A stretch of DNA of 64,000 nucleotides, from IMG/VR virus record IMGVR_UViG_3300044633_003049, positions 62,001-126,000 of that record; one strand, given 5' to 3'. The position numbers and the translations under genes are program-made. This stretch comes from a virus. The notes below the pieces were generated by a model. That model was not told the origin of the DNA. It saw only the letters and a list, made by a program, of their open reading frames with translations, and made no database searches. Of the stretch, positions 5,891 through 26,568 are shown piece after piece; within the stretch, counting starts at the first letter, position 1, and each line of letters opens with the position of its first letter.

Positions 5891-5904
5891 ACATTAAAAA
5901 TTAG

Positions 5905-8450: not shown

Positions 8451-8451
8451 A

Positions 8452-9063: not shown

Positions 9064-9073
9064 AAAATTACAT

Positions 9074-9514
9074 TTAACCTTCTTCTTCTGTTATGTCGGT
9101 TTTACTCCAACTTATTCCCCAATTTTGAAATTCAGCCGCCAAACAATCAAGTTTATAATCTTTTCTACCTCCCACAACTTCTTGTATTTTATTCTTTGCG
9201 GTATTTCTAACACCATTTAACCCATGTGTTAATTCTAAATTATTTCCATCTTTTATACCTTTACGATAATTAGATTCGTTATGCCAAATATGTAAATTGG
9301 TTTGTGCTAAAACAACTATTGCTCTGATGGTTTCTGCATTTATAGTGTTAGGATGTTCATTTAAAAATAATTGAACGTCATGTTGAATGTCTCTTATTTC
9401 TTGTGAGTATTCCTCTTTATGTTCAGTTATAAAAACTTCCTTTAATTGTGATATACTTAACCTATCTACTAATTCTGCCAAAGTCGGCAAATACTTTCTT
9501 TCGTTGTTTTTCAT
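9074..9514 (-). CDS. Conserved phage protein of unknown function
   Basis: 146 residues, mostly helical in appearance. It starts with YLPTLAELVDRLSISQLKEV, a pattern I associate with small uncharacterised proteins of T4-like marine phages. The C-terminus is acidic (DITEEEG). No catalytic motif or membrane segment is visible. It lies between the oxygenase and an SGNH gene with spacers of 10 and 6 bases, so it is in the same operon. Confidence 0.6.
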   Translation of the reverse strand: MKNNERKYLPTLAELVDRLSISQLKEVFITEHKEEYSQEIRDIQHDVQLFLNEHPNTINAETIRAIVVLAQTNLHIWHNESNYRKGIKDGNNLELTHGLNGVRNTAKNKIQEVVGGRKDYKLDCLAAEFQNWGISWSKTDITEEEG

Positions 9515-9520
9515 TTTATA

Positions 9521-10471
9521 TTATTTATTTTTTGGTATTAAGGAATCTCCCATTGTTATTATGTGTTTATATATGATTTCCGATATTACTTCATGACCTT
9601 TATATGATGGGTGTGAACATTTTGTAATATAACCATAATCACTTATTTTATCAATTGAAACAGATAATTTCCTAAAATTATCCATGCTCAATATTAAATC
9701 TAATAAATCGTCTCTCTTTTCTAAAGATAACAATAAATCAGTTACACATAAACTCCCATTTGGGTATAAAAACGTATTCCAATCTATTATATCAACTAAA
9801 CCATTAACTCTTTTTGGTTCCCTGTACATTGTGTTATCATCATGTGAAACACCTTTTATATTATCAATTAATGATTTTCTATTTATATCATTTTCAAAAC
9901 CACTTGTTAATACTAATTTAGCATTATTAACAATACACCAATTTTTTACTAATGATATATTTAACAATAATTCTATTACTGAAGATTTATCACTATGTGC
10001 ATAATTTAAATATCCACCAAAAAAATCTTTTTCTGGATTGTCATCATTAATTGAAGGCCATATTGTTTTAAAATGAACATGTTCAGCATATTCTTTATGT
10101 ACAAAATCAAACCTTTCTCTTCCACTTAACATAAAAACAACAATTTTTTCTTTTGCCATTTCTAAATTTAACTCTGGATGTAAATACAATTCATTTGCCG
10201 CCGCCCTGTTACCTCTCCCTAACATGCCAAAATTTATGGGGGTAAAATCAGTTAAATAATTTTCACAAATCTTATTAACCCATGAATTTTTATAATTGGA
10301 TTCTAAAACATCTACGTTCTCATTTAAATTCATTTTATTAATGTCCCAATCATATTTTTCCCACAAATCTATTGAGCAAGCTCCCTGCCCTTGGGTGAAA
10401 CTATCCCCTAACCCAATTAATATTTTTGAGTTTTTATCAATTTTTAAATTTTTTTCTTGCCAATAATACAT
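9521..10471 (-). CDS. SGNH-hydrolase-like protein
   Basis: 316 residues. Motifs are IGLGDSFTQGQGAC (GDS block), FGMLGRGNRAAANE (Gly/Asn block) and CSHPSYKGHEVISE (C-terminal His block). VFMLSGRERF replaces the MWSG/MWSS stretch of the paralogs. It is the largest of the four SGNH-like proteins, with an extra internal segment of about 80 residues. It overlaps the upstream GT-like gene by one base (stop and start share a base at 10471). The repeated pairing of GT-like and SGNH-like genes here suggests glycan transfer plus O-acyl editing. Confidence 0.7.
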   Translation of the reverse strand: MYYWQEKNLKIDKNSKILIGLGDSFTQGQGACSIDLWEKYDWDINKMNLNENVDVLESNYKNSWVNKICENYLTDFTPINFGMLGRGNRAAANELYLHPELNLEMAKEKIVVFMLSGRERFDFVHKEYAEHVHFKTIWPSINDDNPEKDFFGGYLNYAHSDKSSVIELLLNISLVKNWCIVNNAKLVLTSGFENDINRKSLIDNIKGVSHDDNTMYREPKRVNGLVDIIDWNTFLYPNGSLCVTDLLLSLEKRDDLLDLILSMDNFRKLSVSIDKISDYGYITKCSHPSYKGHEVISEIIYKHIITMGDSLIPKNK

Positions 10472-11760
10472 TATATTAATTTTATTTTAGGTATTTTAAA
10501 AACTTCATTTGAGTATCTTTCTAACTCAAGAAATTCAATTGGTCTATTTATTAGTTTATCCATAAAAGTTCTATAATTGTGTTCTACAATTTCTTCCATA
10601 GACTTAAACCAACTTAATTTATCTTCTATGTTTATTATTTTTTTTATGGATTCTACAATTGCTTCCATTCTTTCAAAAGTCGGTAATGAGTCATAACTTT
10701 CGTCAATAAATCCATCAAACGTTCGATAACCAGTTTCTCTTAATTTTTTTAGGGTATCTTTATTACCCATTATAATAAACGGTTGTCTACACGCTATTAC
10801 TTTATATGTTTTTTCACTAATAAACATTGTATTATTACTATCACCACAATGTGCTTCACTAATAACTGTTACAAACGTATCCAAACAAATTTGATCATTA
10901 AACCTTCTTATGTAATGATTATCGTCCATTTCATCATTTCTTTTTCCATAAACTAATAATGGTAAGTTTTCAGTTAAATTTTCAACATAGTCGGGTTCTA
11001 TAGTTTTACCTTCAAAGTACCAATTACTTTTTTCAAATTTATTCATACTAACGAGACCTTTATCTAAAATACCGGCTTCAAACATATACTTATAAAACCA
11101 TATTCTATGTGGTCTTAGTCTTTTATTAAGACAAGCAAATGATTTTATGTTATCAATATTATCTGTTTTATATTTTATATGATTCTCCCACGTTGGTAAA
11201 CTTTCATTTCTATGTGGCATATGTAAAACTGTTATACCTAAATCCAACTCAAAATGTGGATATCCAATTACTTTAATCCTTTCAATGATTTCATTATCAT
11301 TCGCCCATTTTGTGTAAAATTCTTCAACCACCATATTACCAGTCACATAAACAACCTGTTTTGGTGATATTTTCCATTCTCTACATTCTTTATGAAACCA
11401 ATCCCATAACCATTCTGTTTGATATCCTTCAAAACTTTGGTCAATTAATAGGATAGCGTCTTCATTTTGTAAATCCCTTAAATATTTTTCATTAAGATGT
11501 GAGAATAGACTTTTAACATTTTCGTAATAACCAGTCCAATCCTCTGGACTATGGTTTACCCCACATGAAATTATATATTTTTTTATATCTTCATTACTAT
11601 CGTGAAAAGTATGTGTTGTGTTTATTTCATTCGATACGTAAAATAAATGACTTGCATTTAATAATGGGGACACACCAAATCTACGAATCCCAGATGGGTT
11701 TACATCTTCACAATTGGTAAAATTTAAAAAATTTTTTCCGTCTTCAAATATAAATTTCAT
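10471..11760 (-). CDS. GT10-like glycosyltransferase family protein
   Basis: 429 residues, the same length and plan as the 3875-5164 paralog. FACLNKRLRPHRIWF lies mid-protein, followed by VTVISEAHCGDSNN, FISEKTYKVIACRQPFI and YRTFDGFIDESYDSLP. The (S/T)EK-(T/I)-x-K block recalls GT10 fucosyltransferases. Gene direction upstream of the ATG shows CTTATATT about 18 bases away, a possible -10-like element also found at the 5164 and 26527 starts. Donor and acceptor are unknown. Confidence 0.65.
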   Translation of the reverse strand: MKFIFEDGKNFLNFTNCEDVNPSGIRRFGVSPLLNASHLFYVSNEINTTHTFHDSNEDIKKYIISCGVNHSPEDWTGYYENVKSLFSHLNEKYLRDLQNEDAILLIDQSFEGYQTEWLWDWFHKECREWKISPKQVVYVTGNMVVEEFYTKWANDNEIIERIKVIGYPHFELDLGITVLHMPHRNESLPTWENHIKYKTDNIDNIKSFACLNKRLRPHRIWFYKYMFEAGILDKGLVSMNKFEKSNWYFEGKTIEPDYVENLTENLPLLVYGKRNDEMDDNHYIRRFNDQICLDTFVTVISEAHCGDSNNTMFISEKTYKVIACRQPFIIMGNKDTLKKLRETGYRTFDGFIDESYDSLPTFERMEAIVESIKKIINIEDKLSWFKSMEEIVEHNYRTFMDKLINRPIEFLELERYSNEVFKIPKIKLI

Positions 11761-11787
11761 ATTACAAGTTATTCTTCAATATAAGTA

Positions 11788-12699
11788 TTATTTTTGGGAT
11801 TTAAAAGACATAATATTGAAATAATTACGAATACCTTCTTCATAGTTAATGTGTTCAAAATCTACATATTTTTTTAATAAACTAAAATCAACTCCATAAT
11901 CTCTACTGTCATTTGTAAAATTTTCAAAGTATTCAAATGATTTTATTTTTTTTATAATATTAATCAGTTCTAATTTATTTATATTCAATTCATTGACTCC
12001 AATATTTAAAATTGGTTCGTTAAATTGTATGTTTACTAAAGTGGTTATAATTTTAACACAATCAATAACATGTAAATGTGGTCTTTTAGCTAAAGGGTCG
12101 TATATTTCAATTGGTTTTTTGTCAATTACATCATTTATTATATTATTAATAAAAACGTCATTTCTCCATATTTTAGTGGCAGATGTATTATAATCAAAAT
12201 TACCGTAAAGTGTTGATAATCTTAATATTTTAAAATTTGAATTTTTATTTTCGGTAATAATTTTCTCACACTCTATTTTCATTTTTGAATAGAGTGACGT
12301 TGGTATAACCTCTGAATTTTCATTTACAATGTCTTCCGTCTTACCGTAGACACTACAACTACTAATAAAATATACCTTGGGTGTTCTATATATCCCAGAC
12401 CAATTAAATGAGTTTATGAATGTATTAAAATAACTAACTTCAGTTTCAACTTGTTTTTCTGTATCTAATTCATTTAATCTAGGTTGTGATAAATAAAATA
12501 TCATATCAAAAGATGGGTAATGAAAATCAGATCTAAGTGTTATTCCACCTACGTCTCCGTGTATTTTTTTACATTCTATTAAATCTTGTGTATTATATTT
12601 GAACTTATCAAATACGACTACATTGTGCCCTTTTTTTGTTAGTTTCTTAGATAATGGTATACCTAAATAACCTCCTCCTCCTATTAGTAAAATATTCAT
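11788..12699 (-). CDS. NAD-dependent epimerase/dehydratase (extended SDR)
   Basis: 303 residues. N-terminal NAD-binding motif ILLIGGGGYLGIP, the catalytic YxxxK as YSKMK after FISSCSVYGK, then LRLSTLYG as in sugar-nucleotide epimerases. HVIDCVKIITTLV near residue 215 is typical of the family. It probably epimerises, dehydrates or reduces a nucleotide sugar. It lies one base after the amidinotransferase gene, in a run with an aminotransferase, so it may act in the same pathway. Confidence 0.82.
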   Translation of the reverse strand: MNILLIGGGGYLGIPLSKKLTKKGHNVVVFDKFKYNTQDLIECKKIHGDVGGITLRSDFHYPSFDMIFYLSQPRLNELDTEKQVETEVSYFNTFINSFNWSGIYRTPKVYFISSCSVYGKTEDIVNENSEVIPTSLYSKMKIECEKIITENKNSNFKILRLSTLYGNFDYNTSATKIWRNDVFINNIINDVIDKKPIEIYDPLAKRPHLHVIDCVKIITTLVNIQFNEPILNIGVNELNINKLELINIIKKIKSFEYFENFTNDSRDYGVDFSLLKKYVDFEHINYEEGIRNYFNIMSFKSQK

Positions 12700-12700
12700 A

Positions 12701-13711
12701 TTATTCTCTTATCATATCGGCCGTGACACAATGAAAAGACCCTCCAAGCGTTCTTGAATGTCTTAATTTACAATCCAATGCCTCAATATTGTATTTTTTT
12801 AATTCTTTAATCAGTTCAGTTTGTCTATTGTCCACAATAACTGTATTTTCATCTATTGATAACAAATTAATACCAACCCATACTGAAGCTCGTTCAACTT
12901 TATGGTAACCGATGTCCACCATTGGTGGTGACCATATTTTATCCCAAGATTTTAACATCTCAGGCATATTATTTTCATTTACTCTTTCTGGATTTAACAA
13001 ACAAAGACCCTCACGGAGTAATGCGATGGTTGAATCCAAGTGGCTATATGAATACATGTTTTCAAGGATATGTACCTTGTATTGGTCTCCTAATAGGTTT
13101 TGTAACCATTTTCCACCTAACTTGTTACCAGTATTACTAACAAGATATAAAATATCTTTATTTGACCTCAAAATATTAGCAGCATCAAACACAGGTTCTC
13201 TCTCGGTTAATGTTAATTTAGATAAATCATCTCTTTGGTAACTGTCATCATTCAAGATTGGTTTTGGTGCGGATATCCACTTTGCCCCTTCGTTCATGTA
13301 TTCAATAAATTGATTTCTAAAACAATATGTTTCATATTGTCTTGACCTTAATGTCATAGGGGCTTCCAATATTGTATTTCCAATAACTGTAACAGTATCT
13401 CTTGGACAGAAAGTGTAATATTGGTCTGTTTTCCAAAAACCATTACTTATTACATTTTCAGTATTAATAACTTCGGGTCTTCTAACTTTAATATCAAGGT
13501 CTTTTAATACTTTTACTAAATTTTCTAAATCCTCATATGTTTCTTCATACACCTTATCGTCAAAATTACCTTGTTCTATATATGGGATTCTGTCTTTATC
13601 GGCATAATTAATTGCATGTAAATCTATACCATGTTTTGGCATATTAGCGTTGTCGATTGTACCTACAAACACCTCCTTTAATTTACCCCATTCATTATTA
13701 ACTGATATCAT
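12701..13711 (-). CDS. Amidinotransferase family protein (glycine/inosamine-phosphate amidinotransferase-like)
   Basis: 336 residues. The family signature is nearly complete: EPVFDAANILR (substrate/catalytic Asp region), SHLDSTIALLREG with the catalytic His-x-Asp, and LGGSFHCVTADMIRE with the catalytic Cys at residue 328. Members move an amidino group from arginine to an amine, as in creatine synthesis (glycine amidinotransferase) or streptomycin synthesis (StrB on an inosamine phosphate). The gene overlaps the aminotransferase gene by 14 bases, so the acceptor may be an amino-sugar made by that enzyme. This is inference. Confidence 0.85.
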   Translation of the reverse strand: MISVNNEWGKLKEVFVGTIDNANMPKHGIDLHAINYADKDRIPYIEQGNFDDKVYEETYEDLENLVKVLKDLDIKVRRPEVINTENVISNGFWKTDQYYTFCPRDTVTVIGNTILEAPMTLRSRQYETYCFRNQFIEYMNEGAKWISAPKPILNDDSYQRDDLSKLTLTEREPVFDAANILRSNKDILYLVSNTGNKLGGKWLQNLLGDQYKVHILENMYSYSHLDSTIALLREGLCLLNPERVNENNMPEMLKSWDKIWSPPMVDIGYHKVERASVWVGINLLSIDENTVIVDNRQTELIKELKKYNIEALDCKLRHSRTLGGSFHCVTADMIRE

Positions 13712-14300
13712 TTTTTCTAAAAATTTCTAATTTTGTCAAATCTGGCCAATCATTAATTGTCCATTCTTTTGGTTTATTTAATATTGCTGTTGGTAATTTA
13801 GTTAAACCTTCTTCCGCAATTTCAGGTGTCATATAATAATGATATCCAACCATATCTATATTTTGTTCTTTCCACGGTATATTTGGTAATCTACCGTCAT
13901 ATGACATTTTTTTTAATTTAATAGCAGCTTCTTGATTGTCGGTTAATATCATGCCACCTCTTCCCAATGATAAATGTTTTTGATATTGAAAACTAATTGA
14001 CATGAAAGTTTTAGGAATATAACTATTTGGTTTCCATAAAACTGCGGCATCGATAACACTATATGAAAGATAATAAAAATCTTTCCAATTTTGAGTTCTC
14101 CATTCTAATCCTAAATTTAATTTTTTAGCTAAAAACGGAATTGAGATGTAAGTTTGTTTAGGAACATTAATTGATTTTACATTATTATAACGTAAACATA
14201 ATTCAATTCCATGTGTACAACTATCGACCGCAACGGCAAACGGAGATCCGAAGAACTCCGCAATTTTTTTTTCAAATTCTATTACAGTGTTAAAATCCAT
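13698..14300 (-). CDS. Short DegT/DnrJ/EryC1/StrS-type PLP aminotransferase
   Basis: 200 residues against about 360-390 for a complete family member. The core is recognisable: FGSPFAVAVDSCTHGIELCL at the start, the PLP-contacting Asp in YSVIDAAVLW, and the Schiff-base Lys region FQYQKHLSLGRGGMILTD. The small C-terminal domain is missing, and the gene ends cleanly with an overlap into the amidinotransferase gene. It may be a natural short form or a domain that works with a partner. The family usually aminates keto-sugars. It overlaps the upstream gene by 11 bases. Confidence 0.75.
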   Translation of the reverse strand: MDFNTVIEFEKKIAEFFGSPFAVAVDSCTHGIELCLRYNNVKSINVPKQTYISIPFLAKKLNLGLEWRTQNWKDFYYLSYSVIDAAVLWKPNSYIPKTFMSISFQYQKHLSLGRGGMILTDNQEAAIKLKKMSYDGRLPNIPWKEQNIDMVGYHYYMTPEIAEEGLTKLPTAILNKPKEWTINDWPDLTKLEIFRKNDIS

Positions 14301-15390
14301 CTTTAAGATTATCAGGAATTAATTTTGATAAAGTTCTGTAATCTAAATTTTCATGCCCAAAATAATAACCGTCTGGTTGTAGCCAATTTGGATTGAGAAA
14401 TTTATCTTTTATTTTTGTTTCCCAGTCATCATTTACAGAGACTGCCGGTTGATTTCTATAATACTCTGCAAATTCGCTCCATGTTGATTGGTCTGATTTA
14501 ATTAAAAATTTACAATAACTTAATGAAAATAAATCAACGATATTTTCAATAACATTTCCTCTAATTAAATCATTAATATTCATTTCCGAATTTAATAAAT
14601 ACTCTTTTATTATTGGGACAATATCGAATCTGGTTATAATAGAGTCACCATATTTATCTTTATAATATGAGAAAAATTCATATGGTAAATCTGTACTTAA
14701 ATAAAATTTTTGGTCTGGATTAATTTTAAGAATATTATCAATAATATTGAAGTATTTTTCATCTTCGACAAAGTCATAATATTTATTTACCTTTGGTTTT
14801 ATATTTTTCATTTTTGAAAAATCTTTTCTTATTTCAACAGGTAAATTAAAAATATCTTCCTCGGAACAATTCACTCCACTATTTCTTCTAATATGAATAC
14901 CTACAACATCATAAGTATTTCTTCTAAGTAAATCTTCAATAAATTGATCTTTCAACCTAACATATTTCAACGGCCTTTCCTTTAATGTTCTTTTATATAA
15001 TGAATGAATATGTTGATAACCAAAATCACAGTACCAATGGTCATCATCTGACAATGATTTCCCATCATCATATATTAACCTTAACTTATCTTTATCTATT
15101 TTTGACGATAATCTTACATTAAAATTTTCAACATCTAAAACCGTTAAAAAATTTAAATCTTTAACCCTTTTATCATACTCATATGAAATAAATGTTGAGG
15201 TTTCTGGTAAACTTATTAAGGTGAGTTCAGGCCAATCAGTTTTATCTAACATAATTCTGAATTCACAATCATTACGTCTATTTATATCATAGGCCACTTC
15301 CCAATGAAATATTCTATTACATAAACCAGTATCATTATTTTCCCAACCACCGTATGGTTCTGACCATCTTAATGTTCTTTTGTATATCAT
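14290..15390 (-). CDS. Fucosyltransferase-like glycosyltransferase (NodZ/O-fucosyltransferase type)
   Basis: 366 residues. VVGIHIRRNSGV is the H-x-R-R motif of the GT11/GT23/GT65-68 fold, which contacts the GDP-sugar phosphate. KFYLSTDLPYEFFS and LFSLSYCKFLIKSDQSTWSEFA match the later YLATD and DLxxLSxCxxxxxxxxSTFS motifs of the same fold. GGWENNDTGLCNRIFHW at the N-terminus corresponds to the N-terminal G-x-x-N-R donor-side loop. A GDP-sugar (often GDP-fucose) donor is expected from the fold, not shown. The gene follows an SGNH gene with 3 bases between. Confidence 0.7.
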   Translation of the reverse strand: MIYKRTLRWSEPYGGWENNDTGLCNRIFHWEVAYDINRRNDCEFRIMLDKTDWPELTLISLPETSTFISYEYDKRVKDLNFLTVLDVENFNVRLSSKIDKDKLRLIYDDGKSLSDDDHWYCDFGYQHIHSLYKRTLKERPLKYVRLKDQFIEDLLRRNTYDVVGIHIRRNSGVNCSEEDIFNLPVEIRKDFSKMKNIKPKVNKYYDFVEDEKYFNIIDNILKINPDQKFYLSTDLPYEFFSYYKDKYGDSIITRFDIVPIIKEYLLNSEMNINDLIRGNVIENIVDLFSLSYCKFLIKSDQSTWSEFAEYYRNQPAVSVNDDWETKIKDKFLNPNWLQPDGYYFGHENLDYRTLSKLIPDNLKDGF

Positions 15391-15393
15391 ATT

Positions 15394-16158
15394 TTAAAAT
15401 TTATCTTTTAATAAATCAAACCATTTATTAGCTAAAATTTCACTATCCTCATTTGATACGTGAAATGGATTTTTGGTTTCTTTATTCTCATTATAATATG
15501 TCCATGGATTTAGTTCATCTAAATTTTTAATAACATTATCTTTACAAAAATAAAAATATTTATCATCTAATATAGGTGTTATTAAATGAAAATCAATATT
15601 ATTTGATAATAATTTATACGCACCTTCTGAAATTATCCACGTATCTTGTTGTTTTTTCCATTCCATGTCGTAAAGAAATTGAAAATAATTATTTACAATT
15701 TTTTTCATCTCTTCGTTTACAATATTCTCATATAATATATTATTAATTGAGTTACTTAACATGGTTGGGGTACTGTTGTTAAATATTATATTTTTACCGC
15801 TCTCTTCTAAACTATTTTTATATGAAATATTCGATAATCCGTTATTAGATTTAAAATAATGATTTTTCCATTTTTCAAAGTAATTATTTACTTTTAAATC
15901 ATTTAAGGGTATTTCAATTCTATCAGGACTAGTTGTACCAATAATAATATGATGGGGGTTATGTTTTATAACTTCATCAATCTGTAATCTTATACATTGA
16001 TTACTGACACCTCCCTTCGCGTATGTCATAATTTCACAACCTAACATTTCTTTAAGAATATCTGTAAAATGTTTTCCATGTCCATTTTCTAAATTATTAT
16101 CGTCTTTAGAAATTGACGCCATAAAACTATCACCACAAATACCCAATATTTTTTTCAT
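15394..16158 (-). CDS. SGNH-hydrolase-like protein (divergent)
   Basis: 254 residues. The N-terminus KKILGICGDSFMAS supplies the GDS block and YAKGGVSNQCIRLQ the Gly/Asn block. IIIGTTSPDRIEIPL replaces the MWSG-type stretch. At the C-terminus NPFHVSNEDSEILANKWF may carry the catalytic His, in a weaker context than the other three SGNH paralogs (no HP-x-x-x-GH). Probably the same type of O-acyl hydrolase or transferase, with lower certainty on activity. Confidence 0.6.
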   Translation of the reverse strand: MKKILGICGDSFMASISKDDNNLENGHGKHFTDILKEMLGCEIMTYAKGGVSNQCIRLQIDEVIKHNPHHIIIGTTSPDRIEIPLNDLKVNNYFEKWKNHYFKSNNGLSNISYKNSLEESGKNIIFNNSTPTMLSNSINNILYENIVNEEMKKIVNNYFQFLYDMEWKKQQDTWIISEGAYKLLSNNIDFHLITPILDDKYFYFCKDNVIKNLDELNPWTYYNENKETKNPFHVSNEDSEILANKWFDLLKDKF

Positions 16159-16164
16159 TATAGG

Positions 16165-17613
16165 CTACTTATTATAATTTTCTTTATCCGAAATATAAAC
16201 ACCAGGTTCAAAATGTGTTATTCTACCGTCAGTAACTTTAACATCACCAATTGTATTGTCAACCACCAATGAATTATACCAATCTTCCAACTCAGGAAAT
16301 GTTGCGACAAAATTCTTATTTCTACGAATATCATATTGAACATAAAAACTCTTAAAATCGTGATATTGCATTGACATGTCCATTTCACTTGTGTTATGAC
16401 CTCTATTAACAACTTCAATGTAATCAATTAATCTTTGAATTTGAGCCCCTTCATTCATATTAATTAATGGATTTTTTTTATGTTTTCTCCACCACATTGA
16501 TAACTTACCATGTAAATCATGTTTGACGTCATCTGGTAATGTAAGTGGTGACATAAATGCTGGCCATCTTAATATGTTAAAATCTACAATTGGTTTATGT
16601 GTTCCGTATTTTTCTTTTAATTTCAACATATCATCTAAAAATTCGGTAATACTAAATAAACACAAACTATTAATTGTCATCATAATAACAACTTGTCTAA
16701 TTTTAGCACTCTCAATTACTTTAACTAAATTACTTCTCCATAGTTCATAATTTAAACCATCTCTAATATATTCTGCTTGTGCACCATAAGCCTCACAACT
16801 TGTGTATAAATCAAACTCTTTGATGTCTAATTCGTGAGATATACTAATTAACCTATTCACAGTCATTTCATTAAGACCTAGGTTAGAATTGACTGCAAGT
16901 CGTAAATTAGGGGATGGGTATTGTTTCATTGTATCCATAAACTGCCAGAAATTACGAGATTGTGATGGTTCCCCACCAGTTACACGTATTTCCATTAATT
17001 TTTGTGATAACTCAGGCCACCATTTTAAAAAGGCATCCACATATGGATTATTCTCATTGTACTTACCATAAATCTCTGACCAAGATCCGTCAGCATAATA
17101 TGCCCCCGCACTTGTTGTTTTGAATTTCTGATATGGACCGTTATCTTTTATGTCTTTACCCCATGTTGTTGAGTATCCCGAATTACAATATGAACAAGCA
17201 AAATTACAAGTTCTATCAAATGATACCTCAATAGTTTGTGGTACAATGTCCGCATCCCAAGGTAGTTCTTTTAATGCCGCAATATCTTCTGAACTATATA
17301 TTTGACTCTTATATACTCTATCTGAAATATTATTTCTACCGATATCCTCAATTTTCCAACAATAAGAACATTCAGCCGGTTTAACACCCTCTAACATCAT
17401 TTTACGAATTTCTTTTTTGAAATCAGTATTATGTAATGCCGCAGGGTTGGTTTTAATTGCTTCAACATCTATTGGATGTGGTAATGGTAGGTGACATGAA
17501 TTTGTAAACCCATGACCTAAATGTAAACTAACATTTAACCATTTTGCCGCACAAAAACTACAACTTATCTTATTTAAATGTTCATCTCTCCAATTTGACA
17601 ATTCTTCTGACAT
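16165..17613 (-). CDS. Twitch-domain radical SAM protein
   Basis: 482 residues. An N-terminal Cys-rich unit (SCSFCAAKWLNV, SCHLPLPHPI, NPAALHN, AECSYCWKIED) precedes the radical SAM core. The core's CxxxCxxC is Cys136, Cys140 and Cys143 in CNFACSYCNSGYS, followed by RVTGGEPSQSRNF (the GGE motif for SAM binding). This matches the family with an N-terminal twitch-type auxiliary Fe-S domain. Substrates of this family are not known to me; peptide or sugar modification are both possible. A fused paralog sits at 18383-21184. An ATG at 17613 follows a 48-base AT-rich spacer. Confidence 0.82.
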   Translation of the reverse strand: MSEELSNWRDEHLNKISCSFCAAKWLNVSLHLGHGFTNSCHLPLPHPIDVEAIKTNPAALHNTDFKKEIRKMMLEGVKPAECSYCWKIEDIGRNNISDRVYKSQIYSSEDIAALKELPWDADIVPQTIEVSFDRTCNFACSYCNSGYSTTWGKDIKDNGPYQKFKTTSAGAYYADGSWSEIYGKYNENNPYVDAFLKWWPELSQKLMEIRVTGGEPSQSRNFWQFMDTMKQYPSPNLRLAVNSNLGLNEMTVNRLISISHELDIKEFDLYTSCEAYGAQAEYIRDGLNYELWRSNLVKVIESAKIRQVVIMMTINSLCLFSITEFLDDMLKLKEKYGTHKPIVDFNILRWPAFMSPLTLPDDVKHDLHGKLSMWWRKHKKNPLINMNEGAQIQRLIDYIEVVNRGHNTSEMDMSMQYHDFKSFYVQYDIRRNKNFVATFPELEDWYNSLVVDNTIGDVKVTDGRITHFEPGVYISDKENYNK

Positions 17614-17661: not shown

Positions 17662-18399
17662 TTATTTAATATATTCCTTAGGTACTCTTTCTAAAAAATT
17701 TGTATTTTTAGACTCATCATAAATTATACCTAAATTATTGATATTGTTAAAATTATGAAGAAAAAGAATGTCGTTATAAAATTCTTCCTCTAATATAACA
17801 TCAGTTTCACTTTGATAAATTAATTTAGAAAAATTAATATCACTATGGTTAACTATAGTTGAAAAATGATTAACATCCACTTGACAATAATATCTAGCAT
17901 TTTCAAAATCGCATTCAGGGCTGGAACATCCTAAAAATAAACCTGGATTTTTATAATCATCAATTAAGTTACCCTCAAAACTAATTCTATTATTTTCTTC
18001 AAAATTTTTATAAACTATAATTTCATTTTCTTTTTTTATGACAGTTATAATTACCCCTTTATGGATGTCCTCTTTTTTTATGTCTTTAAATGGAATAAAA
18101 TTAAAAGATTCCTCTATTTCGGTTTTATTCCAAAACTCAAATGCCATAGTATTTGTAGTTTTATTATATGATAACCCAATATTTTTACCAGGTTTACCAT
18201 ATATCATACAAATTTCATCGGTAATAAATTCTTCTGTTATTTTAAAATCACATGTAATAATGTAATTATCATTTAATAAGAATTCATCTAATATTTTATT
18301 ATTTGTTTTGTTATATTCGGTTACATATTGATTATCATGATGGGTTGACATATCCCATTGAAACTTAACCCAATAAGGTTGTTTATAATTTATTATCAT
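17662..18399 (-). CDS. Stand-alone LamG-like (concanavalin A-like) domain protein
   Basis: 245 residues, one domain. It is clearly homologous to the two N-terminal modules of the next gene: shared landmarks are GKPGKNIGLSYN (compare MPGKNFGISYD), FEFWNKT, HKGVIITVI, LFLGCSSP (compare YFGCHNP) and the VDVNHFS stretch. These are the strands of a LamG or lectin-like beta-sandwich. No catalytic motif is present, so a sugar-binding or targeting role is likely. It overlaps the 18383-21184 gene by 17 bases. It may have arisen by duplication of a module from that gene. Confidence 0.6.
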   Translation of the reverse strand: MIINYKQPYWVKFQWDMSTHHDNQYVTEYNKTNNKILDEFLLNDNYIITCDFKITEEFITDEICMIYGKPGKNIGLSYNKTTNTMAFEFWNKTEIEESFNFIPFKDIKKEDIHKGVIITVIKKENEIIVYKNFEENNRISFEGNLIDDYKNPGLFLGCSSPECDFENARYYCQVDVNHFSTIVNHSDINFSKLIYQSETDVILEEEFYNDILFLHNFNNINNLGIIYDESKNTNFLERVPKEYIK

Positions 18400-21184
18400 T
18401 TCTTATTTGCTTTATAAAATTAATTAATTCGGGATAATACTCCTCACAATTTACTCCTCTTCTTTTTTCATATTCATCAATGAATTTAATAAAATCTCTT
18501 TTACTACTATCAAATTCTTTAATGTCAGTATCGTAATCTGTAATGAAGATGTCTTTTATTCTTGAAATTTTTTCAATCTCTTGGGTTGAAAATCCGACGT
18601 CTTCAATAGTTTGTTGTTCATAGAAATTAATACTTCTATATGTTGAATTAAATTTCATGTACTTTAACCACCTATTAAAGTACTCAACATCAATATAATC
18701 TTTCAATACTCTAAAACTCATAAATGAAGGATGTCTCAAATATGATGTATCTAAAATAACTGCCGAGTTCCAATATCTTGATGTATTGAAATGTTTAAGT
18801 TTAAAACTATGTATTTTTTTAATTAGTTTTTCGTATGAAAATATACTAAACATATTAAAAGTTGACATTACTACAATGGTTACTTTGTCCAATACCGTTA
18901 AAATTTTATCTATGTTTGAGAATAGTCTATCAAACTCCAATCCAAATCTTGTGTATTCGGCTTGTTTACCGTATCCTTCACATGATGTAAACAATATTAC
19001 CTCCTTAACTCTACCTTCAGCAATTATTTTTTCTAATTTTAAAATTAATTTATCAATCAACTCATCTGATACACCTAAATTGCTATTGATTGATAATTTT
19101 AAATTTTCGTTAGGTGTGTCAGTTTCCAATATGAAATCTAATACTTTCCATGTGTCTTTTGATAATAGAGGTTCTCCACCGGTAATTCTAAAAGTATCTA
19201 AAGTTGAATATAATTCAGGGAACCATTCCCAAAACGCTTCCACATATGGATTTTCATCTGTTTGTTTATATGGTTTAGTATTTCTTTCCTCCATCCTTCT
19301 GAGACCATTAAATTCATGTGTATCTAACATATATCCTCCGTGTTCGTTAATCTCTTCCATCCATTTGGTCGAATATTCAGGTCCACAATACGCACATTTA
19401 AAATTACATGTGTTAGAAAAATTAACTTCAACATATTTTGGGTTGTAGTTATCTCTCCAATGTAAGTTGGCAATTTCGTCAAAGTGAGGTTCAGACCATG
19501 GTTCCGCAGATTTAAAAAATCTATCAGAAAATGAATCGGAATGATCTTCTACATTCCAACAATAATTACATTCACTTGGTCTTTTGTTTTCCAACATTTC
19601 TTTCCTAGCTCTCTTCTTTACATTACTATTGTGTAATGCGGTTGGGTTTCTTTTAATTTCATCTAACCCTATTTTATGTGGTTCAGGATGGTGACAACTA
19701 TGTGTTGTTCCATTATGTAAATGCATAGTCACTTGTGTCCATTTAGCCAAACAAAAACCACAACCAACTTTATTTAATTTTTCTTTAACAAGATTAAAAT
19801 CTACCATTGTCTTAAATGTTAATAAATCAACAAGTTCGATTGATGTTTCTTTATTTAAATTGTCAAAAATTTCATCAATATTATCAGTTTTTTTAAAATT
19901 AAAATAAGTTAAAGAATTATCTGTTTTTGTTAGTTTTTCTAAATCAACAATATTCATAATTCCATCATAAATACTAAAATGATTTAATTCCATTTCAGTA
20001 AAACATTTATGATTTTCTAATAAAGAACTTGGATTATGGCAACCGAAATAAATTGATTCCGTATTGTATTCAGATATTAAATTATCTTTAACTTCAATTG
20101 TGTCAATTAATTTAAAATTATGATACAATTCGAAATATTCATTCTTTTTATAAATTAAACTAATAGTAATTCCATTATGTAAATCGTTACGATTTATTTT
20201 ATAGTTTTTGTGGCAATGAAATTCTTTATTTTCTTCATCTTTTTGTGTCCAATATTCAAAAACAAACTTCTCGACTTCATAATCAAAGCTAATACCAAAG
20301 TTTTTACCTGGTATTCCAAAAAATCCAATTTTCTCATCTTGAGTAAAATGACGTTCTATTTTAAAAATAATATTTAATGAAAAATCTCTATTTGTTAATA
20401 AATTAGATTCTAAATTGGTTTTTAATTTAAATGGTTTTTTATGTTCAATTTTTAATCCAGGTACCCTTTTTCTTTTTAATTTTATTCTATCCGCAACACT
20501 GACATTTAATTCACTAAATGAAATGTTTATTAGTTTATCTTTTTGATTTTGTATTAGAAAATAATTATAGTCTTCTTTATGAACTAAATATTTTTCCTTT
20601 AAATCAAAGTAACATAACAAATTATCATTAAGATTTTTACTATTATAAAATTTTTCAACATCTTCTATATTCGCCTCTCCATTAAAAATACTAAAATGTT
20701 TTAAATCTAATTCTGTAAAACATTTGTGTTTGTGATTATCAGCATCGGGGTTATGACAACCAAAATAAAGTGGTTGGGTATAGTAATCTTCAATTAAAGG
20801 GTCGTCTAATTCTACATCGAAAAATATATTAAAGTCATGATATAATTCTAATATATTTTTTTCTTTATCGTAATGTATAGTTAAAACAAGACCATTTTCA
20901 ACATCAATTCTATTAATATGGAAATCTTTATGGCAGTGAAAATTATCTCTACCGTTCAACCCTTTTGTCCAAAATTCAAATACAAAAGTCTCAACTTCAA
21001 AATCATAACTAATTCCAAAGTTTTTACCTGGCATACCTAAAAATCCTAATTTTTCATTATCGTAAAAATTTTCAACTTTAAATTCAATTGTTAAATAGGA
21101 ACTATCAGATAAAAACGGATTTATCTTATTACTATCAAGATTATTAATTTCAAATAACCAAGGTTTTTGATTTTCTACTTTCAT
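18383..21184 (-). CDS. Double LamG-like domain fused to twitch-domain radical SAM protein
   Basis: 933 residues in three parts. Residues about 1-215 and 240-440 are two LamG-like repeats (GMPGKNFGISYD and GIPGKNFGISFD; YFGCHNP in both; LKHFSIFNG and LNHFSIYDG). From about 470 follows a full twitch radical SAM protein: GCGFCLAKWTQV, SCHHPEPHKI, NPTALHN, ECNYCWNVED, then CxxxCxxC at Cys593, Cys597 and Cys600 (CNFKCAYCGPEYS) and FRITGGEPLLSKD. The catalytic part is the paralog of 16165-17613. I know of no described enzyme with this lectin-like front end. It overlaps its neighbours by 17 and 4 bases. Confidence 0.8.
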   Translation of the reverse strand: MKVENQKPWLFEINNLDSNKINPFLSDSSYLTIEFKVENFYDNEKLGFLGMPGKNFGISYDFEVETFVFEFWTKGLNGRDNFHCHKDFHINRIDVENGLVLTIHYDKEKNILELYHDFNIFFDVELDDPLIEDYYTQPLYFGCHNPDADNHKHKCFTELDLKHFSIFNGEANIEDVEKFYNSKNLNDNLLCYFDLKEKYLVHKEDYNYFLIQNQKDKLINISFSELNVSVADRIKLKRKRVPGLKIEHKKPFKLKTNLESNLLTNRDFSLNIIFKIERHFTQDEKIGFFGIPGKNFGISFDYEVEKFVFEYWTQKDEENKEFHCHKNYKINRNDLHNGITISLIYKKNEYFELYHNFKLIDTIEVKDNLISEYNTESIYFGCHNPSSLLENHKCFTEMELNHFSIYDGIMNIVDLEKLTKTDNSLTYFNFKKTDNIDEIFDNLNKETSIELVDLLTFKTMVDFNLVKEKLNKVGCGFCLAKWTQVTMHLHNGTTHSCHHPEPHKIGLDEIKRNPTALHNSNVKKRARKEMLENKRPSECNYCWNVEDHSDSFSDRFFKSAEPWSEPHFDEIANLHWRDNYNPKYVEVNFSNTCNFKCAYCGPEYSTKWMEEINEHGGYMLDTHEFNGLRRMEERNTKPYKQTDENPYVEAFWEWFPELYSTLDTFRITGGEPLLSKDTWKVLDFILETDTPNENLKLSINSNLGVSDELIDKLILKLEKIIAEGRVKEVILFTSCEGYGKQAEYTRFGLEFDRLFSNIDKILTVLDKVTIVVMSTFNMFSIFSYEKLIKKIHSFKLKHFNTSRYWNSAVILDTSYLRHPSFMSFRVLKDYIDVEYFNRWLKYMKFNSTYRSINFYEQQTIEDVGFSTQEIEKISRIKDIFITDYDTDIKEFDSSKRDFIKFIDEYEKRRGVNCEEYYPELINFIKQIRNDNKL

Positions 21185-22599
21185 TTCATTGTAACATTTA
21201 TAAATTTAGTATTTTCATATAAAGATACATCAATATTTTCAACATTCAAAACATTTAATATATTGTTTAATCCATCTTCATTATGTTTAATTAAACCCTG
21301 TTGCATCTCCATAACAAATCTTTTTTCGTTTCTAGCGGTAGTTTCCCCCTTAGCCCATTTTCCTTTAACATAACCCTCATCTATATGGGGTATACAGTCA
21401 AAATTACCTTCCTTTCTGAATGGAATCACATTTTCAACCACATTAATATTTTCTTTTGAAATGTTAACATTAAATTCACATTCTTCTTTATTAATATTTT
21501 CTACAACTCCCTTTTTAAAATCCATTTGTAATAACAATCCATCTGAATCATGTAACGCTTCATTGATATCATTTATTGATTTATTAAAAATTCTAATTTC
21601 CGCAATTTTACCTTTAAAAAATGTATTAACGTGTGAACAAAATCCAATTATAAATGGTTGTAGATTATTATATGGTTTTAATTTTTTCTCAATTTTAAAT
21701 GGTGTGTTTTGTTTAGTTCCGTTTTGATTATTAATTAATTCATCGTTTATATATAATGACATCTCCTTTCTTTTACTATTATATGACATTGTCACCCATG
21801 TCCATTGATTTTCATATCTTTTTGCATAGTTGTAATAGTGATTACTATCTTTATCATACATAACCATATTAACTGAACGTGAATTATTAAACGATAATCC
21901 CCAAGTCCAAGAATCTAATTTTCTTATTAATGGGTACTCAATGAATTTCTTTTCTTCGTCCCCAACAAGCCAAATCGGTACCTTTTCTGGTTGTTGTTCA
22001 GCATTAAATAATATTGATATTGTATGGTCATTATCCAAACAACTATCTAATTCTTTATTAGACGGTATAATTATAAAGTTATTTATTCCATTAAAAGTTG
22101 CCGTTGTTTTATTTTTATAAGTTTTAAAAACATTATTCGTTGTATATCCTTCTAAATAACATCTCCAAAATAAGTCATCATCTTCCTGACCCCAATCCCA
22201 ATATTCATTTGAATATCCATTGGTTTTATATGCTTGTTCTTTTGTGAATAAAACGACACCTCCAAAGTATTGATCATAACCTAACCCGTAATTATATTTT
22301 GATAACTTTGTTGCAATGTGTGTTGGATGTTCTTCAGGATACGAATAATCAGCATCTACTTGTGGTAACATATCAACATCGTGCCATGCAACATAGTCAC
22401 ATCCGTCTTCAAACGCGTAATGTGCTGCAATATTTTTCATTGCACCTCTATTGAATAACTTTTCGTCTACTTGGTGACCAACATAAAACGTATGGTCAAT
22501 TCCATTATCTGTTAAATGTTTTGATAGATGTGGTATTAATTTATCAATGTGTTCTTTTCTATCTCTATATGGTATACAAATACCTAATTTATGACTCAT
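21181..22599 (-). CDS. GT7-like galactosyltransferase with an inserted LamG-like domain
   Basis: 472 residues. The N-terminal half has the beta-1,4-galactosyltransferase (GT7) motifs in order: CIPYRDRKEHID, LFNRGAMKNIA, WHDVDMLP (metal-binding DVD), YFGGVVLFTKEQ and YWDWGQEDDDLFWRC (the W-G-x-E-D-D-D catalytic loop). About residues 160-365 form a LamG-like sandwich (TFNGINNFIIIP, WTWVTMSYNSKR, GKIAEIRIFNKS). After it the GT7 C-terminus resumes: CIPHIDEGY, ETTARNEKRF, EDGLNNILNVLNVE and KFINVTM. So the lectin-like fold is nested in the transferase rather than appended. Likely transfers galactose or a related sugar. Confidence 0.8.
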   Translation of the reverse strand: MSHKLGICIPYRDRKEHIDKLIPHLSKHLTDNGIDHTFYVGHQVDEKLFNRGAMKNIAAHYAFEDGCDYVAWHDVDMLPQVDADYSYPEEHPTHIATKLSKYNYGLGYDQYFGGVVLFTKEQAYKTNGYSNEYWDWGQEDDDLFWRCYLEGYTTNNVFKTYKNKTTATFNGINNFIIIPSNKELDSCLDNDHTISILFNAEQQPEKVPIWLVGDEEKKFIEYPLIRKLDSWTWGLSFNNSRSVNMVMYDKDSNHYYNYAKRYENQWTWVTMSYNSKRKEMSLYINDELINNQNGTKQNTPFKIEKKLKPYNNLQPFIIGFCSHVNTFFKGKIAEIRIFNKSINDINEALHDSDGLLLQMDFKKGVVENINKEECEFNVNISKENINVVENVIPFRKEGNFDCIPHIDEGYVKGKWAKGETTARNEKRFVMEMQQGLIKHNEDGLNNILNVLNVENIDVSLYENTKFINVTMK

Positions 22600-24047
22600 A
22601 TTGCTACGTTAACGTGTGTTATGTTTTCACTTATCTGAATTTTTGAATGTTCAGCAAATTCCAATGTTGATAATCCGTCATTTTCCAATAACTCGTCATT
22701 TAATCTAACTTCATTATAAAATCTTAATTGATTCCATCTGGTTGCTTTGAATTTCCATTTGTTTTTATAAAACCCATTTTCTTTGTGTGGTAATAATGCA
22801 AATGTCGATTCTCTTCTATGTGGTATTTTTATTCTTTTATATTTTTCAAATTCTAAATCAACAATTTCACAATTAAAAATTTTACCGTTATTTAAATTAT
22901 CCGATAAATCTTTTAATTTATAACCTTCAGTAAAATTAGGGTCATAATATAGTTGTAGGTCTTGTGATGATATATAATCACCAAAATTTTCCTTTAAATT
23001 ATTATTTTCATTTTTAGATATTTCTAAAATTTCATTGTCATTTAAATTACAATTGTATACTGCGAATGTTGAAATATAACCATTAAAATAATTAGGATAT
23101 TGAGAATTAGGTGTGTCATTTCTTTTTGGGTTACCTACACCTAAATAAAAATATTTTTCATTATCGTATGAACGTATTTTTTTATAAAATACTTCTTTCC
23201 CAATCAGTTTTCCGTCTTGATATACTTTAATAACGTCGTTAATGTTGTCTAACACAACACATATATTCGTTTTATAATTTGTTATTATATTTGAATTAAC
23301 ATAAACCGCATTATTGTCTTTATCAAAAGTGCAGAAATTATATCTACGAAATGAATTATACGTAATTGAAAAATCGTATCCTGGAATTGAAAATATAGTA
23401 AAATCGTCAGAGTCTTTTGTATGGTCTAATATTAAATCAGTAGGATAAAACGAAACGAAAAATGTCATATTTTGATTAAGTTTAAATTCATTTCTTGCCT
23501 TAACATATGCATTTATACCATTAAGTTTTAATACTTTTGATGGTGATGTCCCCACATTCTGAATATCTAAATCATTTAATGGTATACCTTTTTTTTCACA
23601 TCTATAAAGTAAGTCAGTGTCCTCATAACCCCAACCCCAATACTTATTGGAATACCCATCTATTTGACGAAAATGTTCCATTGGGAACATTACAACTCCT
23701 CCAAAATATTCTTCGAAGGTTAATTTTTTATCATACTCTTCATTATTTAAAAAATGTGTTGATAAATGTAACGGGACCTCTGAATATGAATAATCAACAT
23801 GTATTGGCATCATGTCAATATCATGAAATACGACATAATCACAATTTAATTCTTCAGCATACTTAAATCCGATATTTAATAATGTTCCCCTATTAAATAA
23901 TTTAGCATCGTCTTGGTTAATAACAATTAATTCATAATTGATATCAAATTTTTCCATATATCTAACAAATCGTCTACTAAATTCTTTTAAATGACTTCTT
24001 CTATTTCTATATGGAACAACGACTCCTAATTTTTTACTTTTTTCCAC
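22596..24047 (-). CDS. GT7-like galactosyltransferase with an inserted LamG-like domain (paralog)
   Basis: 483 residues, same plan as 21181-22599. GT7 motifs are VVPYRNRRSHLKEF, LFNRGTLLNIGF, FHDIDMMP, YFGGVVMFPMEHF and YWGWGYEDTDLLYRC; the last has D-T-D where the paralog has D-D-D. A LamG-like domain fills about residues 170-350 (KLNGINAYVK, FYLGVGNP, YFNGYISTFAVY). The GT7 end returns with ALLPHKENGFY, TRWNQLRFYNE, NDGLSTLEFAE and THVNVAI. The start is GTG at 24047; no ATG lies nearby. It overlaps both neighbours (14 and 4 bases). Confidence 0.8.
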   Translation of the reverse strand: MEKSKKLGVVVPYRNRRSHLKEFSRRFVRYMEKFDINYELIVINQDDAKLFNRGTLLNIGFKYAEELNCDYVVFHDIDMMPIHVDYSYSEVPLHLSTHFLNNEEYDKKLTFEEYFGGVVMFPMEHFRQIDGYSNKYWGWGYEDTDLLYRCEKKGIPLNDLDIQNVGTSPSKVLKLNGINAYVKARNEFKLNQNMTFFVSFYPTDLILDHTKDSDDFTIFSIPGYDFSITYNSFRRYNFCTFDKDNNAVYVNSNIITNYKTNICVVLDNINDVIKVYQDGKLIGKEVFYKKIRSYDNEKYFYLGVGNPKRNDTPNSQYPNYFNGYISTFAVYNCNLNDNEILEISKNENNNLKENFGDYISSQDLQLYYDPNFTEGYKLKDLSDNLNNGKIFNCEIVDLEFEKYKRIKIPHRRESTFALLPHKENGFYKNKWKFKATRWNQLRFYNEVRLNDELLENDGLSTLEFAEHSKIQISENITHVNVAI

Positions 24048-24264
24048 TCTTAGTTGTTACTTTACTGTCCTCAACGAAACCTTCTTTTACAAATTTGTTA
24101 TGAAATTCCGCTAGATAATATTGGGCTCTGTTACCCCACTCATCTTTATCGATTTCTTCAAACCAAACGGTTAAAGAATCTAATGAATTTGCAATTTTTT
24201 CTAAGGCTTTTACTTTTCTTGTTTCGAGAGCCATTAACTCGTCATTTGATGGTTTTACACTCAT
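24034..24264 (-). CDS. Small helical protein, unknown
   Basis: 76 residues, no recognised family. It begins MSVKPSNDELMALETRKV and reads as a short amphipathic helix or coiled coil (ALEKIANSLDSLTVWFEEI), ending in a basic tail (KSGKK). It is wedged between two glycosyltransferase genes with overlaps of 4 and 14 bases, so it is translated with them. It could be an accessory subunit, which is a guess. Confidence 0.6.
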   Translation of the reverse strand: MSVKPSNDELMALETRKVKALEKIANSLDSLTVWFEEIDKDEWGNRAQYYLAEFHNKFVKEGFVEDSKVTTKSGKK

Positions 24265-25118
24265 ATTGATGTTATTTTATTTATTAATTTATTCCAACTT
24301 TTATATCTGTTATATTCGGGATATATTAATCCCAATTCAAACATATATTCTCTTTTATTTAGATTTATTTTATATTTTGTTTTTAACAATTCAGTGAACA
24401 TTTTAAAATACTCATCTGAATAAGAATAATCTTCTTTTAATTCTGCAACCGCTTTCACTCTATCTATGGAAGTTTTATCCCATTTAAAATGATGTACTTG
24501 AACTGAATAGGATGGTATTGGTGCAATTGATGGATGACCCCAACCTTGCCATTTCCATGTGGTGTGTCCATCAATATTTGCATAGTGTTGACCTGAAGTA
24601 ATTTGTATTCCACCTCTAATTAAACATATTTTATTTGGACACGCTTTACTCATATGATATCTAAAAAAACCGGCATTTGGAAATTGTTCCCATATTGATA
24701 CATCATCTTTTAATTCAACAAACTCACCATCTTCTCCAATTCTATCAATAAAACCACCTCGAACAATATCCCATCCAAATTCTTCACAATCGTTAATTAA
24801 TGAAACAATATCATCATCAGGATATAAATGAAATTCATCAATGTCGGCAATCACCCACCAATCAAATGGTATTTGATCCTTAATGAAGTTATATAATGCG
24901 GTTACTTTCTCCCAATCAAAAACTCTATCTTCAATGACCTTAACAATCTTCACATTGTCATGGTCTTTAATAATTTCATTTATATCTTCTTCTAATGTTG
25001 GGTATAAATCTGTTTTATAAATTGCAATGTTAATCTCATCAACATATCTTTTATAATGTTTGATGAAATGTGGAAGTAAATTAACTCCGTGACCTATAAC
25101 TGTTAATAACCTAACCAT
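24261..25118 (-). CDS. GT2/GT92-like glycosyltransferase
   Basis: 285 residues. It starts VRLLTVIGHGVNLLPHFIKHY, as in GT92-type and related GT-A proteins that begin with an acceptor-side strand and a helix. The metal-binding motif is VIADIDEFHLYP (D-x-D-E-F). Later HTTWKWQGWGHPS and VQVHHFKWDKTS supply the conserved His/Trp cluster of that group. A soluble, metal-dependent glycosyltransferase is likely; donor unknown. It shares a 4-base overlap with the upstream gene-pair junction and one base with the methyltransferase gene. Confidence 0.75.
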   Translation of the reverse strand: MVRLLTVIGHGVNLLPHFIKHYKRYVDEINIAIYKTDLYPTLEEDINEIIKDHDNVKIVKVIEDRVFDWEKVTALYNFIKDQIPFDWWVIADIDEFHLYPDDDIVSLINDCEEFGWDIVRGGFIDRIGEDGEFVELKDDVSIWEQFPNAGFFRYHMSKACPNKICLIRGGIQITSGQHYANIDGHTTWKWQGWGHPSIAPIPSYSVQVHHFKWDKTSIDRVKAVAELKEDYSYSDEYFKMFTELLKTKYKINLNKREYMFELGLIYPEYNRYKSWNKLINKITSI

Positions 25119-25843
25119 TATTTTTTATTAATTACCGTTATACCGCTTGATGCTGGTTTGTTAGGTAATATACGAAAATTAAATAAATTAATCAAATTAT
25201 AAAGTGGATTTTTTTCTAATTCTTTAATAAATTTTGATGGACCGTCAAATCTATGGTGGTCTTTTTTTGCGTCCTCTGAAACTATTAATGATTCCTCGTA
25301 ATCTGAATCTGTATCGTGAATAACAATAATACCTTTATCGGTTAATAGTGTTGAATATAATTCAAAATCTTTCTTAACTCCTTCATATGAATGGTCACCA
25401 TCTATAAAGATAAAATCTAATTTAATATCTTGTAAAACAAAGAAATTATAATATGCATCTTCTGATGTTGATTTAATCAATCTGGGTTGAAACGTATGTC
25501 GGTAGTATGAATACTCATCCTCAAGGTCGTTAGGTCCTCCTACCCCATTACAAGCGTCAACCAGATAGGTTACACCAATATCACCCCAATTTAAAGTGTC
25601 GTTACCTTCAAATATTCCTTGTTTATGTAAATCTAATCTTGCTTGTGTTATAATACGAGGTATATATCCACCACCAGAACCGATACATGCGCAGTTCTTG
25701 GCTCTCATATGTTGTATTAACGAATAAACTATAATACCATCACCTAAATGTTCTTCGGTGGCACCATGTGTCCATCTATAAGGTACAGGTTCACCATAAT
25801 TGGTTGTAATTTTTTCTTTAATAAAATCTTGATTGGTAATCAT
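25118..25843 (-). CDS. SAM-dependent methyltransferase (CmcI/Methyltransf_24-like)
   Basis: 241 residues with a class I Rossmann methyltransferase layout. The glycine-rich motif I is CIGSGGGYIPRI. The strand-4/5 motif DFIFIDGDHSYEGVKKDFEL, followed by GIIVIHDTDSD, is the hallmark of the CmcI/Methyltransf_24 group. These often methylate sugars or natural products. The C-terminal FNFRILPNKPASSG resembles the end of the same family. In this island O-methylation of a sugar is a reasonable guess. Confidence 0.75.
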   Translation of the reverse strand: MITNQDFIKEKITTNYGEPVPYRWTHGATEEHLGDGIIVYSLIQHMRAKNCACIGSGGGYIPRIITQARLDLHKQGIFEGNDTLNWGDIGVTYLVDACNGVGGPNDLEDEYSYYRHTFQPRLIKSTSEDAYYNFFVLQDIKLDFIFIDGDHSYEGVKKDFELYSTLLTDKGIIVIHDTDSDYEESLIVSEDAKKDHHRFDGPSKFIKELEKNPLYNLINLFNFRILPNKPASSGITVINKK

Positions 25844-25846
25844 AAC

Positions 25847-26527
25847 TTATTGTTTTATTACATTTATAACATTATCTTTTAACATATTAAACAATTCATT
25901 ATCTTTTTGTATATACACATTTGATAGTTTTGATGCAATATGTATTGAGAATCCTTCTCCACCTGCGTATATTTCTTTAATTCTTCTGATATCACAACTT
26001 TCTCTCACCACTTGCAACTTTTCATATTGTAAAAAGAAATCATCTTTAAGTCCTTGATTATTAAAGACAATGAAATATTCGTTAATTGTTTCTAACTCTG
26101 TAAATGTTGGTAATAATTTATCAACGTACTTCTTATATTCATCCCAATCTGGTGCAGTTAAATTGATTTCACCGATAAACTCTTTATTAACTTTATTTGA
26201 TAATAGATTATCAATGTATGTGATTCCGTCTTTGAATTTGTGGTTTTTTAAATCGTTAATAATTGAATAGTCATTGATGATGGTGTCGGCATCAATTAAT
26301 ATTGCTATGTTATGATATTTTAATATTTCTTTAACTAATATTATCTTATCATGATATGACTTAAGGTGTCTACCATAGTATATAGTTTTAGTTGTAAATT
26401 GTTCTGTGTCATCGGTTAAGACATAACAATCAATTCCAATATCTTTTAAATTGGTAACTTTTTCTTTTGTACTATTAAAATAGGAAACGTCACCGAAACA
26501 CATTACTCCTATACCGATATTATTCAT
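25847..26527 (-). CDS. Putative GT-A-fold glycosyltransferase
   Basis: The ATG at 26527 gives 226 residues; a longer reading from a TTG at 26554 looks spurious. The order IGIGVMCFGD, IDCYVLTDDTEQF, SYHDKIILVKEIL and ILIDADTII (D-x-D) is that of GT-A enzymes of the GT6/GT8/GT34 kind. GGEGFSIHIASKL may be the acceptor loop. No close family is recognised. It is the most upstream gene of the island and sits directly behind the fibre genes (41-base gap). CTTATATT lies 7 bases before the ATG. Confidence 0.55.
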   Translation of the reverse strand: MNNIGIGVMCFGDVSYFNSTKEKVTNLKDIGIDCYVLTDDTEQFTTKTIYYGRHLKSYHDKIILVKEILKYHNIAILIDADTIINDYSIINDLKNHKFKDGITYIDNLLSNKVNKEFIGEINLTAPDWDEYKKYVDKLLPTFTELETINEYFIVFNNQGLKDDFFLQYEKLQVVRESCDIRRIKEIYAGGEGFSIHIASKLSNVYIQKDNELFNMLKDNVINVIKQ

Positions 26528-26568
26528 ACCTATAATATAAGAAAAATATTTCAATAATTAAAATATTA

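Follow-up and report, generated by a model that had tools for sequence, protein, structure and literature searches.

Two adjacent genes on the minus strand of the window, which is the whole stretch of 64,000 nucleotides analysed here, encode paralogous glycosyltransferases of family GT7, and in each of them a LamG beta-sandwich is nested inside the catalytic fold. Sequence comparison shows the GT7 fold to be completed on the far side of LamG, so that a single active site draws on both halves; the structure models are consistent with this. We hold it to be a little better than an even chance that these two proteins, P0001 and P0002, are beta-1,4-galactosyltransferase-like, inverting and metal-dependent enzymes with one site across the insert that act in sequence, that LamG docks the acceptor and/or pairs the enzymes, and that the likeliest target lies on the virion. 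The two genes and their parts are located as follows.

22596..24047, minus strand: P0002 (P2 paralogue), GT7-LamG-GT7 enzyme of 483 aa with a GTG start, intact ORF
23568..24047, minus strand: GT7 N-core of P0002, aa ~1-160, with FNRG, HDIDM and WGWGYEDTD
22824..23555, minus strand: LamG insert of P0002, aa ~165-408
22599..22823, minus strand: resumed GT7 C-terminus of P0002, aa 409-483, with LLPH (His421, invariant)
21181..22599, minus strand: P0001 (P1 paralogue), GT7-LamG-GT7 enzyme of 472 aa, intact ORF
22126..22599, minus strand: GT7 N-core of P0001, aa ~1-158, with FNRG, HDVDM and WDWGQEDDD
21424..22122, minus strand: LamG insert of P0001, aa ~160-392
21184..21423, minus strand: resumed GT7 C-terminus of P0001, aa 393-472, with R.EG.F..(I/L)PH (His405, invariant), N..RF and DGLN

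The two ORFs share 4 nt (ATGA), and their products are 29% identical over the whole length. Searching Pfam found the domains in the order Glyco_transf_7N, Glyco_transf_7C and Laminin_G_3 in both proteins, with E-values for P0001 and P0002, respectively, of 3e-15 and 7e-19, of 4e-19 and 9e-20, and of 8e-9 in either case. Both exceed the curated cut-offs of PF13733 (GT7 N) and PF02709 (GT7 C), and the Laminin_G_3 match reaches 36 bits against a cut-off of 27.6. The features of GT7 membership are present as well, namely a DxD-type metal motif, the WGxED loop, and a C-terminal segment with the metal His, N..RF and DGL, while membership of LamG is given by the profile match above the cut-off and a ConA/pentraxin-like sandwich in the models. 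The resumed C-terminus carries no Pfam annotation, and neither PHROGs nor NCBIfam holds a family for P0001 or P0002. A preliminary description of this DNA had the GT7 motifs running in order up to WGxED with LamG following, which proved correct to within ~16 residues.

AlphaFold2 models were obtained with a mean pLDDT of 85.6 and pTM of 0.83 for P0001, and of 88.1 and 0.85 for P0002. In Foldseek searches the best PDB folds for the N-core (first ~155 residues) were beta4GalT7 and T1 (E ~1e-14), and LamG/pentraxin folds were matched next, separately from the GT7 part, in both models; no Foldseek alignment ran across the insert to GT7 structures. The secondary-structure order of the C-part agrees with GT7, and its GT7 identity rests on this agreement together with the profile tests described below. 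Models and profile tests together uphold the preliminary view of the middle part as a LamG/pentraxin sandwich and of the last part as the GT7 C-terminus.

The missing Pfam annotation of the C-terminal segment, and a Foldseek alignment to GT7 structures that covers only about the first 155 residues, would suit a simple GT7-LamG fusion with a C-terminal segment unrelated to GT7. We give this reading next to no chance, since it is contradicted by double, reciprocal and beta4GalT1 profile matches. Every one of the 133 distinct phage proteins tested is matched twice by a profile of contiguous (uninterrupted) bacterial GT7s, once over model positions ~3-167 and once over ~166-231, and ~240 residues separate the two matches. 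For the second match, E-values in the proteins shown as examples range from about 1e-7 to 1e-10. Reciprocally, a profile made from the post-LamG segments alone matches bacterial GT7 ORFs 0-5 residues after their N part. The full phage profile A1 matches human beta4GalT1 twice and in order, with the second match spanning N..RF..DGL; at 9.5 bits this match is weak alone, but its position is correct. The bacterial text RxGxFxPLxHDNxGF...N...DGLS also resembles the phage post-insert text RREGxFxCLPHxDEGF...N.KRF...DGLN, and R.G.F..LPH...G and N..RF...DGL are common to the phage proteins and the contiguous GT7s. The three profile tests agree that the GT7 C-terminus resumes after LamG, and with the Pfam order they bear out the nesting claimed for both neighbouring proteins.

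The insert gap measures 192-292 aa (median 241), starting ~16 residues past WGxED and ending ~10 before the invariant His, which is equivalent to the GT7 metal ligand. In B4GalT1 the Trp loop occupies residues 309-318 and the lid, which closes on substrate binding, residues 338-365 (PMC6198961). As judged from the sequence correspondence, the insert site is placed in the gap between these two elements and would adjoin the hinge or root of the lid.

The catalytic motifs are conserved on both sides of the insert. The post-insert His is kept in 87/87 P1 and 83/83 P2 proteins, HDxD is found in all of them, and FNRG and WGxED in nearly all. In some viruses a third GT7-LamG paralogue, P3, lies upstream of P2 (L134:1777-3246, L128:1771-3246, L130:1758-3212 and others). 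WGxED is degenerate in 12 of 20 P3 proteins, and His, whose status was read directly from the P3 sequences, is lost in all 12 of those (LEN, MEG or IEG instead); the other 8 have a WGYG.xD-like motif and all keep His. Such a joint loss is predicted by a single active site spanning LamG, and it may reflect just one or two evolutionary events. From these motifs, the 12 P3 proteins are likely pseudo-glycosyltransferases.

Viral and bacterial collections yielded 190 distinct nested proteins together with 94 contiguous ones (40 bacterial and 54 viral). In a core tree built from the N-core alone, with the insert excluded, the nested proteins all fall into one clade that contains no contiguous ones (support 0.77); it splits into P1 (n=87), P2 (n=83) and P3 (n=20), and a tree of the LamG domains recovers the same three groups. 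The single clade and the concordant LamG tree indicate that the insertion happened once, that the duplications came later, and that insert and core have been inherited as a unit; they reject separate insertions into P1 and P2. On this evidence a LamG sandwich entered a common ancestor at one point, between the metal-His strand at the lid root and the helix that follows the Trp-loop/WGxED, and gene duplication then gave P1, P2 and sometimes P3. Of the earlier statement that the architecture is present twice, the two nested copies stand, and the statement is refined to one insertion followed by duplication, with a third copy in some viruses. No LamG appended at an end was found among the contiguous proteins (0/94, none with a LamG match), and no reversion to a contiguous GT7 was seen inside the nested clade. 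Divergence has been faster in the insert than in the core (in P1, the mean pairwise identities are 0.40 and 0.68), which fits variable acceptors and also relaxed constraint.

The nested architecture is kept across many aquatic viruses, and the family was seen in metagenomic contigs only. Against 50,697 deposited phage records, tblastn of P0002 gave no match at E 1e-5, and tblastn of P0001 only a stray piece of 28.8% identity (E 0.1). Three full-length nested matches came from genomes labelled bacterial (L043-L045), on short MAG contigs of 9-23 kb assigned to Pelagibacterales and Flavobacteriales. The phage-type operon seen in viral loci recurs in L043 and L044; all three appear to be phage contigs that were binned as bacterial, and they were not counted as cellular genes.

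The window belongs to a virus record of 211,784 bases, that of a large contractile-tailed phage; the record has a gene for a contractile-tail sheath and a match to a Gp23-type capsid. The capsid match (G000:C1:23899-24081, outside the window) covers model positions 135-195 only, in a 100-aa open frame, and the gene may be either split or highly divergent. Around P0001 and P0002, the following genes were found in the window.

25847..26554, minus strand: protein of 235 aa without a Pfam match, in which the stretch 'LIDADTIIND' looks GT-like; a conserved family in part of the loci
25118..25843, minus strand: Methyltransf_24 methyltransferase, the conserved second gene upstream
24261..25118, minus strand: GT2-like protein with a weak Glyco_tranf_2_4 match
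18383..21184, minus strand: protein of 933 aa with two N-terminal LamG domains and a twitch radical-SAM enzyme (N_Twi_rSAM), overlapping P0001 by 4 nt
17662..18399, minus strand: LamG-only protein of 245 aa, close to the LamGs of the radical-SAM protein
16165..17613, minus strand: second twitch radical-SAM protein, within the gene cluster

The 235 aa protein may itself be GT-like. A small ORF of ~69 codons (~24057-24264, minus strand) lies between the GT2-like gene and P0002, and its ATG overlaps the stop of the GT2-like gene.

Across loci the conserved gene order is methyltransferase, GT2-like, P3 where present, P2, P1 and radical-SAM, often followed by LamG-only. Of 63 distinct loci, 56 have the GT2-like gene directly before their first GT7-LamG gene; the radical-SAM gene follows the GT7s in 56 of 65, and 47 GT7 pairs overlap by 4 nt. 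At least two GT7-LamG genes are found in 63 of 68 distinct loci, with three in 10. The number of LamGs fused to the radical-SAM relatives varies from none to two. Profile-profile comparison links the LamGs of the GT7s, the radical-SAM proteins and the LamG-only proteins, strongly for most pairs; the direct link of P1 or P3 to the radical-SAM LamGs is weak, as are the single-sequence links. Operon and tail LamGs showed no pairwise grouping in single-sequence comparison, and the corresponding profile test is weak, the trimmed tail profile being one sequence.

Virion-type genes with LamG, or tail-fibre genes, lie next to the operon in several viruses, but recognisable virion genes are not its neighbours in every virus (in L132 the neighbour is a phosphoesterase-like gene). 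In the window, sugar-related genes lie at ~2-26 kb, downstream of tail-fibre, collagen-like and LamG-bearing genes. Positions 2015-17613 hold genes for a UDP-glucose dehydrogenase, an epimerase, a DegT aminotransferase, an E1/transketolase-like pair, a GDSL-like protein and a 2OG-Fe(II) oxygenase; the oxygenase, together with the collagen-like fibre genes, is reminiscent of the way in which collagen is hydroxylated and glycosylated.

On the reading that we favour, P2 and P1 would add successive sugars to one growing glycan of the operon by metal-dependent transfer of a UDP-sugar, the GT2-like enzyme would start or extend this glycan, and the methyltransferase would cap it. LamG folds often bind proteins rather than sugars, and carbohydrate binding is not universal in the family. 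The nested LamG probably holds the molecule being glycosylated; sugar binding, donor, acceptor and target we infer. LamG may sit on the acceptor side, as the preliminary description proposed, and UDP-Gal, UDP-GalNAc or UDP-GlcNAc may be the donor. Since the operon adjoins virion-type genes in several viruses, the target is most likely a virion (tail or fibre) protein. The main alternative, which we consider possible though doubtful, is that the operon modifies a host surface glycan of O-antigen or capsule type, for example to block superinfection, and that LamG binds that glycan. The NDP-sugar genes nearby (epimerase, UDP-glucose dehydrogenase and DegT aminotransferase, with a dTDP-sugar isomerase in relatives) speak for it, and GT clusters of jumbo cyanophages have been read that way (PMC7824862); the adjoining virion-type genes speak against it, with a host glycan still compatible.

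The part played by LamG could also differ from that of acceptor docking. That it is an oligomerisation module, joining P1 to P2 or to P3 as an inactive partner with no acceptor contact, would suit the near-constant occurrence of these genes in pairs or triplets and the likely pseudoenzymes among P3, and nested DUF1975 domains make SdgA/SdgB dimerise and TarM and GtfA/B oligomerise (PMC8561734). We think this rather unlikely, however, since the LamG-only and LamG-radical-SAM proteins of the operon relate to the insert, and recognition of a common partner or substrate fits them better. A further reading, in our judgement unlikely, is that LamG is a shared recruitment code of the operon. The nested, radical-SAM-fused and standalone LamGs would bring several enzymes into one complex, for which a pseudo-GT P3 would be the scaffold in some viruses; this complex would make a modified glycan on a single virion target, and the nested LamG would in addition control when the GT7 lid closes. 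A passive insertion, in which LamG is a hitch-hiking domain of no function, could be suggested by its faster divergence, but it is very improbable given that LamG is present in all 190 nested proteins and inherited with the core, its fold is intact in the models, and the clade shows no return to a contiguous GT7.

The nested architecture shows that a conserved and catalytically critical fold can be split beside its moving lid by a whole binding domain of ~200 residues and still be under selection, and it would represent a natural design in which a GT-A enzyme links glycosyl transfer to the binding of its acceptor. The glycan-making operon is widespread in large aquatic phages and apparently has not been described before, and it bears on what their many glycosyltransferases modify. 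The preliminary description knew of no such architecture among described GT7 enzymes, and we likewise found no account of a nested GT7-LamG in the open-licence literature searched. In a survey of jumbo phages, LamG (in tail fibres) and GT clusters are reported as separate features (PMC7824862), and the core genome of a lineage of large aquatic phages includes four putative GT families (PMC12619734).

Compared with known systems, the phage proteins share with the animal beta-1,4-galactosyltransferases B4GALT1 and B4GALT7 the N-core motifs, the Trp-loop WGxED, the metal His before the lid and the C-terminal N..RF and DGL; the animal enzymes, unlike them, have a membrane stem, a catalytic chain of ~270-290 aa and no domain between Trp loop and lid. 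The nearest relatives found are GT7-like enzymes, bacterial and viral, that are contiguous (Pelagibacter, Azospirillum and short viral contigs). They carry the same motifs, with R.G.F..LPH straight after the helix, and differ in their length of ~250 aa and in having no insert. LamG/pentraxin-like domains of phage virion proteins have the same sandwich and match Laminin_G_3, but here LamG lies inside an enzyme and not in a fibre. In arrangement, a parallel is offered by the staphylococcal SdgA/SdgB, tandem GTs of one operon in which a beta-rich DUF1975, nested in the acceptor-binding domain, dimerises and binds the acceptor (PMC8561734), a double role that the nested LamG would resemble. SdgA/SdgB, GtfA/GtfB and TarM have a GT-B fold and another inserted fold, whereas P0001 and P0002 combine a GT-A-type GT7 with LamG and lack the GT-B fold with DUF1975 that marks the DUF1975 type, and the resemblance is therefore best regarded as a likeness of design and not of kinship.
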